Translations under genes and position numbers: made by a program
NCBI GenBank assembly: GCA_002067235.1
Contig: MVQP01000011.1
Location: 1-50,318 of the forward strand
Direction of reading: 5' to 3'
Source: Syntrophorhabdus sp. PtaB.Bin047
Lineage (GTDB): Bacteria; Desulfobacterota; Syntrophorhabdia; Syntrophorhabdales; Syntrophorhabdaceae
DNA: 50,318 nucleotides
The notes under the pieces: generated by a model
Told to the model about the DNA's origin: nothing
Seen by the model: only the letters and a program-made list of their open reading frames with translations
The model's database searches: none
In this document: piece after piece, positions 31,780-50,263 of the stretch
Layout of the letters: the number at the start of each line of letters is the position of its first letter
Position numbering within the stretch: position 1 is the stretch's first letter

Positions 31780-33075
31780 ATGAAAAGAACAGCTTTCCTT
31801 CTGCTTGCAATGCTCCTTATCATTCCGGCAGTGAGCAACGCCGGCAGCATGACAAGCAGGTACGATGTCACATTCGGCGGCTTCGTGAAGTTCGACGTCG
31901 GCTGGACCTCACAGAACGCCAACGCGGATGCGGTAAACGCTTCCCGGTCAAGCACATCCTCACGTAAGGTCCTTGCCGACGAGTACGGCAACACCTTCAT
32001 GAGCGGTGCCGAGACCCGTTTCAACTTCCTCGTCAAAGGTCCCGATCTGTGGGGCGCCAAGACGAGCGCTTTCATCGAAGGCGACTTCCGCGGCACGTCA
32101 ACAGGCAACGCCTACGGCGGATTCCAGCTCAGGCACGCCTTCATGACCTTGAAATGGGATTCAGCGGAATTGATGATGGGCCAGAACTGGCAGCAGTGGG
32201 GCATGCCCTACTACGTCCCGACGGTCAGCATCCTTGACTATGCCCAGTACCTGAAAGGTATCAGGACTCCGCAGATGGCATTCCGCTATTTCTTCACGAA
32301 GGAGGTCAACGCCATGGTAGGCCTCACCTCCGCGACGGAGTGGTCGGGCTTCCGCGGAATCCGTCAGTCCAATGACGGCTTCGCCAGAAGCAGCTGGCCG
32401 GGACTCCAGGGCGAGATCGCATACTGGACCGACCGCTGCGGCAAGATCGGCCCCCAGAACCTGAAGTTCGCATTGGGCGGCTACTATGGAAAAGACAACA
32501 GCACGTCTCAAACCTACGTTACCACCACCGGCAACGACTACAGGGATGATACTCTCAATTCCTGGGCGGTGGCCTTCCGGTATTCAGTACCTATCGTTCC
32601 CGAGAAGGCAGGCAACAAGGCAATGGCCGTCCTCCTCAACGGCAACTTCTGGGTCGGCCAGAACCTGAACGGCAGCGGCTGGCTCTATGACTCCAACTAC
32701 GCCGCGTACCAGAGGCCCGATGGCAGCATGGCCGCCCCGACAATGTTCGGCCTCCAGGCGAACCTGTCATGGTGGATCACCAACACCCTCCACCTCAACG
32801 GAAACTACGGCTATCTGAAACACAACGCCAGCGATTACGCGCGGAACGCCGCGGTCAGCACCTACAACATGACCCAGAGCTACGGCGCAAACCTGCTGTG
32901 GGATGCAAACCAGGCCATCAGGTTCGGTGTCCAGTGGGTCCGGAACTACACAGGCTACAATGGATACGGCGTGCCTGTCACCAGCACTGGCGCCCCCCTC
33001 AGCGTGGGCACGGGCAATGCCGATCGCACAGGCATAGCCGACGTTTACAGGTTCGGCGCCTGGTATTTCTTCTAA
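31780..33075 (+). CDS. outer-membrane beta-barrel porin-like protein
   Basis: A 431-residue protein with a signal peptide (RTAFLLLAMLLIIPAVSNA, cleaved before GSMTS). The rest alternates polar and hydrophobic residues in strand-sized pieces, with many Trp, Tyr and Gly, and ends in RFGAWYFF; a C-terminal Phe is the usual barrel signal for BamA. FGGFVKFDVGW after the signal peptide resembles the first strand of DcaP-type porins. It probably lets small solutes across the outer membrane; the substrate is unknown. It has its own leader and a terminator, so it is a single-gene unit. Confidence 0.8.
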   Translation: MKRTAFLLLAMLLIIPAVSNAGSMTSRYDVTFGGFVKFDVGWTSQNANADAVNASRSSTSSRKVLADEYGNTFMSGAETRFNFLVKGPDLWGAKTSAFIEGDFRGTSTGNAYGGFQLRHAFMTLKWDSAELMMGQNWQQWGMPYYVPTVSILDYAQYLKGIRTPQMAFRYFFTKEVNAMVGLTSATEWSGFRGIRQSNDGFARSSWPGLQGEIAYWTDRCGKIGPQNLKFALGGYYGKDNSTSQTYVTTTGNDYRDDTLNSWAVAFRYSVPIVPEKAGNKAMAVLLNGNFWVGQNLNGSGWLYDSNYAAYQRPDGSMAAPTMFGLQANLSWWITNTLHLNGNYGYLKHNASDYARNAAVSTYNMTQSYGANLLWDANQAIRFGVQWVRNYTGYNGYGVPVTSTGAPLSVGTGNADRTGIADVYRFGAWYFF

Positions 33076-42923: not shown

Positions 42924-44491
42924 GGGTCGACTTTTACGATACCACCCTCAGGGATGGGGCCCAGTCGGAGGACATCGCCTTCAGCCTCACCGACAAACTG
43001 AGGATAACGGAAAAGCTTGACGAGTTCGGCATCCACTACATAGAAGGAGGCTGGCCGGGCTCGAACCCGAAAGACCTGCAATACTTCAAAGAAGTAAGGA
43101 AGCTCTCCCTCAGGAACGCCCGCATCGTGGCCTTTTCGAGCACGGTGAAGGCCAACGCCCGCCCCGACACGGACCCCGTGATGAAGGCCCTCCTCGACGC
43201 AGGGACCGACGCGGTGGCCATCGTGGGAAAGGCCTGGGACCTGCATGTGCGGGACGCCCTTCGCGTCAGTCTCGACACGAACCTCAAGATGATAGGGACA
43301 ACCATCGCCCATCTCAAGAAGTTGGCCAAGACCGTCTTCTTCGACGCGGAACATTTCTATGACGGGTACAAACGCAACGCCGGGTATGCCCTCGAGGTCA
43401 TACGTACCGCCCGGGACGCCGGCGCAGACGTCATCGTCCTGTGCGACACCAACGGCGGGGCCATGCCCTTCGAGATCTTCGACATCACGCGGACCGTGGG
43501 AAAAGAAACAAAGACAAGACTGGGCATCCACACCCACAACGATACGGAGCTCGGCGTCGCCAATTCCCTGATGGCGGTGAAGGCGGGATGCAACCTCGTG
43601 CAGGGCACCATCAACGGCTACGGGGAGCGCTGCGGAAACGCGAACCTCTGCTCCATCATCCCCAACGTCATCCTCAAGATGGGACACACCGGCATCGACA
43701 GGGAAAGGATCCCCCGTTTGCGGGAGTTGAGCCTCTTCGTCGACGAGATGGCCAATTTCATACCCGACAAGCACAGGCCCTACGTGGGAGAGAGCGCCTT
43801 CGCGCACAAGGGCGGCATACACGTCAGCGCCATCAGGAAGAACCCCGAGACCTACGAACACATACGCCCGGAGCTCGTCGGCAATTCCCAGCGCGTCCTC
43901 ATCTCGGACCTCTCCGGCGAGAGCAGCATCCGCTACAAGGCGAAGGAGTTCAACATCGACATCGACAGGGACCCGAAGGTGGTCAGGGATGTCGTCAAGA
44001 GGATAAAGGACCTGGAGATGGGCGGATACCAGTTCGAGGGGGCCGAAGGCTCTCTGGAACTCCTCATCAAGAAGAAGCTGGGTATCCACAGGTCCTACTT
44101 CGAGCTCATCGGTTTTCGGATCATCGTCGAAAAGAAGGAGACCTCCCAACCCGTGACGGAGGCGACGATCCTCGTCAGGGTCGGCGACCGCGTGGAGCAC
44201 ACGGCGGCGCTCGGCAAGGGCCCCGTCAATGCCCTCGACAACGCGCTCAGAAAGGCCCTTCACACCTTCTATCCCCAGCTGAAGAAGATGGACCTGGTCG
44301 ATTACAAGGTGAGGGTCCTTTCCACGCGGGAGGGCACCGGGGCTCCCACCCGGGTCCTCATCGAAAGCTCCGACGGCAAACACACCTGGGGAACGGTGGG
44401 CGTGTCGGAGAACATCATCGAGGCGAGCTGGCGGGCACTCGTCGACTCCATCGACTACAAGCTTCTCATTGAAGAGGAAAAGAAGCTGTGA
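42920..44491 (+). CDS. cimA: (R)-citramalate synthase
   Basis: A 523-residue protein of the isopropylmalate synthase superfamily. [18 protein letters not shown] and [13 protein letters not shown] are specific for the citramalate/CimA branch; [13 protein letters not shown] holds the metal His pair, and a LeuA-type regulatory domain occupies about 395-515. It condenses pyruvate and acetyl-CoA, giving isoleucine without threonine. The TTG start has GGAGG four bases before it. The final ATGA-like overlap joins it to a second, free regulatory domain. Confidence 0.95.
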
Positions 44492-44955
44492 GAAAACTGG
44501 TCAACGTCATCGACGCCACGAAGGAGCTCAACATCCTGCGATCGAAGAGGGACTACGACAGGCCCTTCGAGGTGGTCGGCACCTACCGGCTCATCGACGA
44601 TGGGCAGAGACCGGAGGCAACGGTCATTATCAAGACCCGGGAAAGGGAGACGCACGAGGCATCCACCGGGGTCGGCCCCGTCGACGCCCTCGCCAACGTC
44701 CTCAAGAAATCCCTTTCGTCGATCTTCCCCGTCATCCAGGAAGTGAAGCTCGTCGACTTCTCTTCCCGAATCCATGATTCCCGGTCGGGGACATCGGCGA
44801 ACGTCGAGGTGAACATAATCTTCTCCGACGGCGAGACCATCTGGAGCGTCGTTGCCATATCGGAGAACATCAATATGGCCTCCTTCGTGGCCCTCATCGA
44901 CGGGTTTGAATACGCCATTCTCGCGAAAAAGGTGAAACGCTCACGAAGAGCCTGA
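44488..44955 (+). CDS. free-standing LeuA-type regulatory (dimerisation) domain protein
   Basis: A 155-residue protein that consists of only the isopropylmalate synthase allosteric domain: [37 protein letters not shown] and later [20 protein letters not shown] match the repeat pattern of that domain in the CimA just upstream, without any barrel. It overlaps cimA by four bases. It might join CimA or a distant LeuA as a regulatory subunit. The equivalent stretch in CimA reads [17 protein letters not shown], so the two are recognisably related. The start is GTG. Confidence 0.85.
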
Positions 44956-46546: not shown

Positions 46547-47254
46547 CTACTTGAGGGCCCGGACCGCAGGCAGGAACCAGGCGCCTCGGGCCTTCATGTC
46601 CGCGATCGCCTGTGCTGAGGTGTCCGGAGCCACGCCCCGGATCAGGTCCTCGATGACAACAACGGAGTAACCCAGGTCAAGGGCGTCCATCACCGTGGCC
46701 TTGACACAGTAATCCGTGGCTATGCCGTACACAATAAGGTGCGTTACCCCCAGGGCTGTGAGGATCCCGTCGAGTTCGGTGTTTGCCCCGCCGTCGTCCC
46801 GGAAGGCGGAATAGCTGTCATAGTTCCTATCCTGACCCTTCTTGACCAGTTCGTAGAACAGGTTGTTATCGACGAGTTCGCGGGAGTCCCCGGCCGTCTG
46901 CACGCAGTGAGGCGGCCAGAGGACCTGCATCCTGCCGTCAGGCAGTTCGATCACGTCGAAAGGCTGAGTTCCCGGATGGTTGGTGTAGAAGGAGATGTGA
47001 TCGGACGGATGGTAGTCCCGGCTCCCCAGTACCTTCAGACCCATGTAACGGAACCACCTCGTAGCCCACTGCACGTCGCGGACATAGGCCGCGTTCGCGT
47101 CTGCGACGGCGAGAGAACCGCCCTCGACGAAACAGGGCTGGACATCGATCACCAGAACAGCCCACTGGGCTTTCGAAGGCTGGTCGTTCCCGTGAGCCCA
47201 GGACGGGAAGACCGTCATCAGGAGAAAGAACGAAATCACGAACAGCTTAGCCAT
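46547..47254 (-). CDS. pncA: exported nicotinamidase/isochorismatase-family amidase
   Basis: A 235-residue protein. Residues 1-20 (KLFVISFFLLMTVFPSWA) are a signal peptide. The catalytic triad of nicotinamidases is present: Asp 37 in LVIDVQPCF, Lys 139 in ELVKKGQD, and Cys 183 in YGIATDYCVKAT. The metal ligands are Asp 80, His 82 and His 86 in SRDYHPSDH. It would turn nicotinamide into nicotinate, outside the inner membrane. Usual PncA lacks a signal peptide. AGGAGG lies upstream of the ATG. The gene faces the histidine kinase tail to tail. Confidence 0.88.
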   Translation of the reverse strand: MAKLFVISFFLLMTVFPSWAHGNDQPSKAQWAVLVIDVQPCFVEGGSLAVADANAAYVRDVQWATRWFRYMGLKVLGSRDYHPSDHISFYTNHPGTQPFDVIELPDGRMQVLWPPHCVQTAGDSRELVDNNLFYELVKKGQDRNYDSYSAFRDDGGANTELDGILTALGVTHLIVYGIATDYCVKATVMDALDLGYSVVVIEDLIRGVAPDTSAQAIADMKARGAWFLPAVRALK

Positions 47255-47613: not shown

Positions 47614-50070
47614 TTATTTCACGCCGGAGCATTTCAGACGTGTTCTCATACACCCGGACAGGGCGAAAAGAAAGTCGCGGATGTCTCTCTTCCTTGCATC
47701 CACCTCGGGAGGGTGAACGCCCAGGCGCAGGGCGCATGCCGTGAGATACCTGTTGGCCTCGTCACTGATGACGGGGTCGACCCCGAAACGCAGAAGCTGG
47801 ATCTTCCCCGACAGAACCCTCTCCTGGCCGTCCTTCGCGGTCATCAGGGCACGCTCGATCAGGTTGTCGACATCGAACTGCACGACGCTGCGCAACATCA
47901 CGCGGTCCCCGCCGTCGTAACGGGCCAGCAGCCTGTCGAACTGCTGCAGGACCCACCCGTCGATGCTTCCCATGTAGCCGGCCGCCATACCGGCCAGCAT
48001 CATGACGAAATGCCGCTGGTCCCAATCGACGCATTGCTCGATGAGATCACGGACAGTGCGTCTTTCCTCCCCGGTGATCGCGATATTGCCGGCAAAACCG
48101 TCACGCTCGTCGGAAACTATCTCCGCCAGGAGCAAAAGGAGCATGGCCCCTCCCCTGATCATCTCTCCCGGACGCATGGCCTTCCGCGCCTGCCCCAGAA
48201 GTTCGGGGAAATGGGAACGGATCCTCGCCGTCAGCTCGTCCTCGGTGCTTCCCCACCGGTACACCTGGTGCAGGCAAAAGCCGATGAGGCCGCTCGCCCT
48301 CGTTCCCATCACACGGACCATCCGGTCCACATCGTCCGTTGTCTTGACCCTCAGCTGCTGGACCACATGGTCCGGCAGGCCCGACAGGATACCGATGATG
48401 GAGCGACGGGTCTCGGGAGAAAAGCCGGCCCAGTTCAGAAGGTACCCCGTGACGGCCTCAGCCTCCAGGCATTCCACGGGGTCCGAGACGATCTCGTATA
48501 TCTTCACGCGGTCAAAGACAAAGATGTCGTGCATGACCTTCGATATATAGGCGCTGACCATCTCGAAACGCGGGTCCTTCTCGCGGCCCAGTGTCCAGAT
48601 GTAAACAAGGAGGCTCTTGTTCACTTTCGTGAGGACCTTGAGCAGCATCTTGTAGTCATTCTTGAAGACCTTCGGCGCGTTGATGAGGTCGTACAGGAAT
48701 GTCCTCAGGAGGAGCCACTCGCTGACATCCACGACGCACCTGTTGTCGAGGCGGCCCGTGCGCAGGAATTCCGCCAGCCGCAGGTGGTCGAAGCTGTCGC
48801 TGCGCAGGATCTCGATCAACTTCCCGTGATTGATGTTGTTCCGCATCAGGGTCGTGTTGAGTCCCCGGACCACGTTCGACAGCCGTTCAAAGTCAGCGGC
48901 CCCCTTCTCGCCGCGCCCTTCGCCGGGAGCTTCCGGCCTCTCCGGGAACCCCTCCCGGGAGGAATAGTGCTGGAGCATAATGAAGTCATCCACGCGCTCC
49001 CTGTTCTGTCCGCCGACCATGCACTCCGACAGGCTGCGGCACTCCTGTTCCGTGGTGGACCGGGAGAACCCGAACAGTTCGCGCACGCCGGGTTGTTCCG
49101 TGGATTCGTCGAAGCTCAGGTACCGGTTCCAGGTCTTCATCAGGGCGAGGTGCATGCATTTCTCATCGCTGCCCCCTGCCGGCGAGCGCAGCATGGCGAA
49201 CATGATCGCGTATCCCAGGCTCAGGTAGACCACGGGCTTCCAATCGGACTGATAGATGAGCGGATGGATGTTGACGACTATGTCCCTGTCTTCGCACGTC
49301 ACCATGCCCTGCCCCGAACGGGCACCCAGGGTGATCCTGTACCTCTGCGTCCAGAGGTAATCCCCGTAGCGAAAGGCGTAGTTCTTCACGATCCTGTGAA
49401 TAAAGCCCGTAAGCTCGTCGAGGAACTCGGGACCCACAAAGGGGGCGTCCGCCGCGTCGGAGATGTCGATCTCGAGGCGGTGGGCGTCATTCGCCGTGAA
49501 GACCCTGTTCAACCAGATCCGGGTCGGGCGGATATGATAGATCGTGGGTTTGTTGAAAATATCGAGTGAAGCCAGGAGAAGCTTCGGCTCCGCCCTGTAG
49601 GCGTCGATCACGCGGTCCCTCGCTCCATCCCTTACCGTCCCGCCCTGTTTCATGGTGAGGGCCATGTAAAGAAAGACCGCCGCGGCAAAGATATCCAGTA
49701 TCCCCGGATGAACGACGGGAAGGGGCTTGATGTGGTCAAAATAGGGGACAAAAAGGTTCCAGTGCGCCTCGACGGCGATGGCCTGCCCCTTTCGGGTGAT
49801 CTTCACGAGCGGCGAGCGGCGGCCCGTGATGGTGACGGTGATTGCCGAGCCCGCGCATTCGGACAGGACAGGTCCAAGCAGGGTCTTCAGCCGCGCGTCG
49901 TCAAGGCCCTTTGCCCTGTCCGCCGCGGCCGCGGTCTTCCCGGAAACGAATCCCTCCACCGTCGTCGACGGAACAAAGACTTCCCCATCCGCGCTCCTCA
50001 GAAATGTCAGTTCCGGCAGATCGACGCTGTCCGCCACTGCCGGATAAACGATCACCCTGCCCTGTTTCAC
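47614..50070 (-). CDS. large protein of unknown function
   Basis: An 818-residue protein without recognisable catalytic motif. It has no signal peptide; one moderately hydrophobic stretch (ILDIFAAAVFLYMAL) lies near residue 125 and may be buried. Much of the second half reads as amphipathic helices of about 30 residues with Leu/Ile heptads, in the manner of helical-repeat scaffold proteins. A Gly/Glu-rich loop (about 385-400) divides the halves. The GTG at 50070 is chosen because GGGGAG lies five bases before it. TATACT on the minus strand (about 50139-50134) may be its -10 box. Confidence 0.7.
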   Translation of the reverse strand: MKQGRVIVYPAVADSVDLPELTFLRSADGEVFVPSTTVEGFVSGKTAAAADRAKGLDDARLKTLLGPVLSECAGSAITVTITGRRSPLVKITRKGQAIAVEAHWNLFVPYFDHIKPLPVVHPGILDIFAAAVFLYMALTMKQGGTVRDGARDRVIDAYRAEPKLLLASLDIFNKPTIYHIRPTRIWLNRVFTANDAHRLEIDISDAADAPFVGPEFLDELTGFIHRIVKNYAFRYGDYLWTQRYRITLGARSGQGMVTCEDRDIVVNIHPLIYQSDWKPVVYLSLGYAIMFAMLRSPAGGSDEKCMHLALMKTWNRYLSFDESTEQPGVRELFGFSRSTTEQECRSLSECMVGGQNRERVDDFIMLQHYSSREGFPERPEAPGEGRGEKGAADFERLSNVVRGLNTTLMRNNINHGKLIEILRSDSFDHLRLAEFLRTGRLDNRCVVDVSEWLLLRTFLYDLINAPKVFKNDYKMLLKVLTKVNKSLLVYIWTLGREKDPRFEMVSAYISKVMHDIFVFDRVKIYEIVSDPVECLEAEAVTGYLLNWAGFSPETRRSIIGILSGLPDHVVQQLRVKTTDDVDRMVRVMGTRASGLIGFCLHQVYRWGSTEDELTARIRSHFPELLGQARKAMRPGEMIRGGAMLLLLLAEIVSDERDGFAGNIAITGEERRTVRDLIEQCVDWDQRHFVMMLAGMAAGYMGSIDGWVLQQFDRLLARYDGGDRVMLRSVVQFDVDNLIERALMTAKDGQERVLSGKIQLLRFGVDPVISDEANRYLTACALRLGVHPPEVDARKRDIRDFLFALSGCMRTRLKCSGVK

Positions 50071-50221
50071 CGGCACTCCCCCCTGCGCTCAACAATGACC
50101 ATTCTCTCTACCCCTTTTCGGACGCATCCCCCAGTATAGCACGGACCACCCCGCCAATTCCTCACCCAAATCACCCCCATCGTTCGTATTATAAAAGCAT
50201 TTTTGTATCGTCTTTATCCTT

Positions 50222-50248
50222 TCACTTGAAACCTGAGACCCGAAACCT
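50222..50248. repeat. CCTGAAA heptamer array
   Basis: TTGAAAC, CTGAGAC, CCGAAAC at 7-base steps, between the divergent orphan gene and the gene cut by the right edge. Confidence 0.55.
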
Positions 50249-50263
50249 TGTATGTTACTCCCA

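Follow-up and report, generated by a model that had tools for sequence, protein, structure and literature searches.

What kind of protein stands behind an open frame that resembles nothing known by sequence? This question is raised by the window (the whole 50,318-nucleotide stretch of DNA from Syntrophorhabdus sp. PtaB.Bin047 analysed here), in which an 818-residue orphan protein, referred to below as P0001, is encoded. The reading that we prefer, with belief and doubt about evenly balanced, is that P0001 represents a lineage-restricted cytoplasmic protein, in which tandem pseudo-zincin units are followed by an ARM/HEAT-like solenoid, and that it serves as a scaffold or adaptor without catalytic activity. 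The features on which this reading is built are collected in Table 1.

Table 1. Coordinates of the P0001 gene, of the predicted parts of its product and of an upstream element in the window
Feature	Position	Strand	Remarks
P0001 gene (818-residue orphan protein)	47614..50070	-	GTG start, TAA stop; 13 family members; dN/dS 0.12-0.25 in 7/8 comparisons
Unit 1, residues ~40-182	49525..49951	-	alpha-beta-beta-beta-alpha; putatively zincin-like; no HExxH; two M48 rows
Unit 2, residues ~196-345	49036..49485	-	zincin-like fold in the model; no HExxH; SPRTN Z 9.4, YbeY Z 8.1, Wss1 Z 7.9
C-terminal half, residues ~390-818	47617..48903	-	helical, ARM/HEAT-like solenoid in the model; Z 11.9
Possible extended -10 element, TGCTATACT	50133..50141	-	TGnTATACT in 5/5 close relatives aligned, window included; our own reading

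A real gene confined to one lineage

The open frame of 818 residues on the minus strand, as originally predicted, was borne out. It comprises 818 codons and a stop, running from a GTG at 50070 to the stop at 47614, and a second GTG lies in frame at 50076. Thirteen distinct proteins could be aligned as a family; the identity of the other 12 to P0001 ranges from 56 to 85%, and full-length frames were present in all 13. Eight of the 12 orthologues were compared with the window gene (four further ones were left out), yielding dN/dS values of 0.12-0.25 in seven cases, while dS was saturated in the eighth. Since none of the 13 members has an internal stop and the dN/dS ratio is this low in seven of eight comparisons, the frame is a real gene under purifying selection, present in one copy per genome, and not a chance ORF. 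The plus-strand shadow ORF at 47713-49569 is not conserved: from 3 to 27 stops interrupt it in the eight orthologues read, against one in the window.

A profile search found full-length relatives of P0001, one copy each, in 10 of the 12 genomes of the genus (its own included) and in one of 27 other genomes of the family, again full-length and single-copy. At the family level, this gives 11 of 39 genomes, own included, after removal of a chance match, G012:C46 (E 0.003 and 0.001), where the matching stretch has stops and the ORFs listed around it do not continue the family frame. Another match, G000:C21 (E 0.17), was rejected as chance, no continuing family frame being seen in the ORFs listed around it. 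The survey across Desulfobacterota that the original prediction had recommended returned the own genome alone among 297 sampled genomes of the phylum, a sample which contained no other carrier of the family. A scan of genome contigs with short patterns drawn from one sequence, a method that detects close relatives only and that distant relatives outside the phylum could escape, led to six loci, four already found and two new. The carriers that bear names are Syntrophorhabdus sp. PtaB.Bin184, Syntrophobacterales bacterium Delta_02 and four Deltaproteobacteria MAGs; the group is therefore Syntrophorhabdus-like. No relative was found in the plasmids and phages searched or in viral contigs, where none of 257 pattern matches was confirmed. 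In four of the 11 assemblies (loci L001, L002, L003 and L004, from the window genome, G005, G001 and G002), the gene lies less than 800 bases from a contig end.

Such a narrow and patchy occurrence (10/12 genomes in the genus, 1/27 elsewhere in the family), together with changing neighbours and, in two relatives, a gene for an IS200-like transposase located 2-3.5 kb upstream, might suggest a fast-diverged remnant or a passenger of a selfish element with no function of its own. However, purifying selection in seven of eight comparisons largely refutes this idea; full-length frames in all 13 members and the failure to find anything in plasmids, phages and viral contigs also speak against it, and we regard it as very improbable. 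P0001 is a lineage-restricted protein and a genuine orphan.

Its orphan status holds at the sequence level, exactly as first described: there is no recognisable domain, and nothing significant was found in Pfam, NCBIfam, PHROGs, PADLOC or the PDB sequences. P0001 matched no Pfam or NCBIfam family at E up to 10 and no model of the anti-phage defence set PADLOC at E up to 1, while PHROGs gave a single line (E 0.21). Scans of the 13 members against Pfam and NCBIfam produced chance-level lines, with no SprT, ARM or HEAT among the Pfam matches at E up to 1. Among PDB sequences, the best E was 0.32 with P0001, and there was none with the family profile. We discarded CO-dehydrogenase (E 0.32), CitG (0.093), Y_phosphatase3 (0.091), BCA_ABC_TP_C (0.14), a portal protein (0.21) and GlxA (0.04) as chance-level lines. 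A reading of VVKNYAFRY as a GHKL/histidine-kinase N-box was also dropped, as by eye no glycine-rich box follows the motif. Titles and abstracts of the literature contained no description of the protein that we could find. Overall, a clear match to a known family, the outcome that would have contradicted the original prediction, did not emerge by sequence, whereas by fold a weak one did (see below).

The most likely reading is that P0001 is cytoplasmic. No signal peptide is evident by eye, in agreement with what had been noted for the sequence. The most hydrophobic 19-mer (residues 119-137, Kyte-Doolittle 1.78) includes D126, and because this residue is conserved in 12 of 13 members, we do not call the stretch a membrane helix.

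Predicted architecture of the two halves

Structure prediction, proposed for P0001 from the start, proved to be the right test. The AlphaFold2 input was a 13-row alignment of fairly similar sequences. The full-length model reached a mean pLDDT of 66.3 and a pTM of 0.45, and a model of the N-terminal 360 residues alone reached 65.7 and 0.64; the weaker part of the latter holds unit 2, with block means of ~43-71 over residues 200-340. In both models, residues 1 to ~345 are predicted to be alpha/beta and to form two successive alpha-beta-beta-beta-alpha units. Hence, the texture described as mostly helical-repeat applies to residues ~390-818, helical and solenoid-like in the model, but not to the N-terminal part. 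The secondary structure of unit 1 is H58-72, E76-82, E89-94, E97-103 and H122-141. That of unit 2 is H214-241, E245-249, E257-260, E263-267 and H278-295 in the full-length model and, slightly differently, H214-235, E244-247 and H278-294 in the N-terminal one; for both units, the two models nearly agree. Invariant positions are densest in four 30-residue blocks (211-240, 451-480, 511-540 and 691-720), with 16-19 of them in each.

The idea of a tandem SprT/YgjP-type zincin with a degraded HExxH helix had been noted from the sequence and the secondary structure of the first model, before the results of any fold search were obtained. When the N-terminal model was compared with known structures by VIA-align, SPRTN (6mdx) came first, with 3.1 A over 100 residues (model 216-348) and a Z of 9.4, somewhat above the Z of 7-8 typical for models with no clear match. 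Three chains had a Z of at least 8, all of zincin fold (6mdx 9.4, 6mdw 9.2 and 1oz9 8.1). Further scores for unit 2, beside those of YbeY and Wss1 (5ln5) in Table 1, were 7.7 for selecase, 7.5 for a predicted zincin-like protease and 7.0 for jannalysin. Judged by titles, and partly by what we take to be their family, 48 of the best 50 rows are structures of zincin-type proteins, although in three of these (1pwq, 1pwv and 1pww) the alignment lies outside the catalytic domain; the remaining two are an HExxH-domain oxygenase and a terpene synthase. Because the list re-ranks chains preselected by Foldseek and middling Z values are common, we take this ranking as support and not as proof. Overall, the models support a zincin-like fold for unit 2. 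Unit 1 might be zincin-like as well, judging by its element order; among the VIA-align rows listed, just two align solely within residues 1-198, and both are M48 peptidases, 3c37 (Z 5.0) and ZMPSTE24 (4aw6, Z 4.8).

Foldseek gave no match to the N-terminal model at E 0.001 or less among PDB structures or viral models. Against the PDB, CorA came first (E 0.28), and selecase (0.85), YbeY (1.1) and SPRTN (6mdw, 2.7) were also listed. Against viral models, the best E was 0.082, for a phage protein with no named function, and two of the 50 matches listed are SprT-like (E 2.0 and 2.3). Profile-profile comparison by hhalign was not significant for unit 1 against unit 2, nor for either unit against SprT/YgjP alignments drawn from the relatives and the phylum. 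When unit 2 was aligned with the SprT set, the best result short of the threshold paired columns 26-83 with 10-70 (P 0.28). By our own count, this pairing falls in the register suggested by the fold, which is no evidence by itself. The two proteins that scored best there, the controls L035_13 and L036_7, are IS200-like transposases. In an unfiltered hmmsearch with three SprT/YgjP models, control proteins filled the best 14 rows of each. With hhalign and hmmsearch both negative, homology to YgjP/SprT is not supported by sequence.

Alternatively, the shallow alignment may have produced a spurious likeness to zincins, and the N-terminal half would be an alpha/beta domain with a different or novel fold. 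P0001 would then be an orphan in which a helical solenoid follows an N-terminal domain that binds or catalyses. The moderate pLDDT of the N-terminal model, the lack of a significant Foldseek match in the PDB and viral models, the negative hhalign and hmmsearch results with SprT/YgjP and the failure of unit 1 to align with unit 2 would all agree with such a scenario. On the other hand, by our own reading zincin-type proteins occupy nearly the whole top of the VIA-align ranking, and the zincin idea preceded the fold search. We consider this scenario possible, if rather doubtful.

Returning to the zincin-like reading, the closest counterparts of unit 2 in predicted element order and modelled overall fold are the SprT-like (Spartan/Wss1) metallopeptidases of PF10263. 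In contrast to these, P0001 lacks HExxH (as do all 13 members), shows no Pfam or profile-profile match, and has two tandem units and a solenoid. The compact zincin core of minigluzincins (jannalysin), selecase and YbeY also resembles unit 2 (Z 7.0-8.1). These are small single-domain proteins with metal ligands, and P0001 differs from them in having no HExxH. The resemblance to M48 peptidases in the N-terminal part comes with weak scores, no HExxH in 13/13 and no sequence match.

For the C-terminal half, VIA-align of the full model placed the ARM repeats of beta-catenin (9i8x) at Z 11.9 (3.9 A, 150 residues, model 572-771), a value in the range, below ~13, where a match between helical repeats may mean a common helical arrangement only. 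The Foldseek list for the full model consisted largely of long solenoid proteins; its lowest E was 0.0077, so that no match reached 0.001, and a designed ARM protein appeared at E 0.11 and prob 0.93. The modelled likeness extends to transportin and CAND1, although P0001 has no Pfam match to ARM or HEAT. Taken together, the models support an ARM/HEAT-like solenoid of ~400 residues.

As a separate observation, a common SprT-like family of ~380 residues exists in other Desulfobacterota (L040, L085-L104), mostly with the motif HEMAHQ; the part after its SprT domain resembles DUF2786 by eye. In the genome of the window itself, PF10263 matches nothing at E up to 0.01.

Active-site positions and a possible binding role

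The HExxH motif is absent anywhere in all 13 proteins, and HxxxH occurs in a single member (L006). In the register that we infer, the H, E and H positions are occupied by A/G, V/A and Y in unit 1 and by G, Y/H and M/V/I in unit 2 (G286, Y287 and M290 in P0001). Read in this way, the metal-binding HExxH appears to have been lost in both zincin-like units.

Loss of HExxH is not without parallel. Metallopeptidase pseudoenzymes that have lost it, as the units of P0001 seem to have done, are reported in a review to play binding or scaffolding roles toward other proteins (PMC11266112); that text nowhere uses the terms SprT, M48 or zincin. In the reading that we prefer, the two consecutive zincin-fold units of P0001 would be pseudopeptidase units, followed by the ARM/HEAT-like solenoid of ~400 residues, and partner proteins or peptides might be bound in the groove of the solenoid and in the clefts of the zincin units, which would have been remodelled. 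P0001 would then most likely hold other proteins and not cut them, a binding role deduced from the predicted architecture. It is tempting to go further and suppose a new architecture, in which an ARM-like solenoid is joined to a tandem pair of zincins devoid of catalytic activity and which was born or retained in one syntrophic genus as a dedicated scaffold for protein assembly or substrate presentation; we offer this as a tentative, though quite conceivable, proposal.

A different scenario would keep the chemistry, with P0001 being a hydrolase or metalloenzyme whose zincin-like scaffold carries a non-canonical metal site (involving, for instance, the invariant H103, H121 or H225) and a solenoid that serves as a substrate-presenting arm, as in M1-family enzymes. 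Six histidines are indeed invariant in the family (H103, H121, H225, H429, H601 and H687), along with several acidic residues. A zincin domain followed by a helical solenoid is the layout of the M1 family, and its members LTA4H and EryP appear for unit 2 at Z 5-6. However, these rows score below SPRTN and YbeY, the N-terminal half is different, and the HExxHx18E signature of M1 aminopeptidases and LTA4H does not occur in P0001, given that HExxH is found in none of the 13 proteins and HxxxH in one. We regard such an enzyme as unlikely.

If the pseudo-zincin reading is true, what looks like an orphan has arisen from copies of a known fold that diverged far, lost their chemistry and are paired with a binding solenoid. 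P0001 would thereby be a defined protein, open to testing, from syntrophic bacteria, a group in which genetics is still poorly developed. It would also warn that, when a family is shallow and restricted to one lineage, a domain search that finds nothing may conceal a fold already known.

Genomic neighbourhood and upstream region

The gene was thought to stand alone on the minus strand, which turned out to be wrong: an isochorismatase-family protein (PF00857) is encoded on the same strand at 46547-47254 (-), ~360 bases downstream of the P0001 gene. In the window and in G001, G002 and G006, the P0001 gene is convergent with a gene row, which in the window encodes PdxJ, a YjeF/Carb_kinase protein, TsaE, an amino-acid kinase with ACT domains, HMGL/LeuA-type proteins and a hybrid histidine kinase. 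In G005, the orthologue lies 188 bases after an HlyD-ABC-FtsX-FtsX gene row. A homologue of the last gene of this row, cut by the contig start, is found 184 bases upstream of the orthologue in G001, and homologues of the first three are found ~1.4 kb upstream in G006. Among the clades, the called neighbours vary (MFS, OmpA, SLT, FAA hydrolase, carbohydrate phosphorylase, FtsX exporter), as called by a simple codon-usage script that overlooked genes in several loci, with a single gene called in L015 and the orthologue itself left uncalled in L015 and L016. Because the called neighbours differ between clades, we rejected an operon-based function by guilt by association. Such changing neighbours would fit a protein acting alone or with partners encoded elsewhere.

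A strict sigma-70 scan of the region upstream of the gene returned no promoter. The conserved element given in Table 1 would be compatible with an extended -10 promoter and with a transcript of its own for the P0001 gene, which would be expected to start near 50126.

Several minor observations concern the surroundings of the gene and of its orthologues. Short AGGTTTCAGGTTTCAAGT-like repeats are located upstream of the P0001 gene at 50200-50250, and similar ones occur upstream of some orthologues. The IS200-like (Y1_Tnp) transposase genes mentioned above, RAYT-like by eye, are at L035:13945-14925 and L036:14194-15153, ~2 and 3.5 kb upstream of the respective orthologues. The plus-strand gene at 31780-33075 encodes a 431-residue protein with no Pfam match; in G003, a protein 63% identical to it, by eye an exported outer-membrane porin, is encoded adjoining the P0001 orthologue. 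Finally, a stand-alone LeuA dimerisation domain (PF08502) of 155 residues is encoded at 44488-44955 (+) and is kept in G001, G002 and G006. The gene immediately before it, of full HMGL/LeuA type, carries a PF08502 copy as well.
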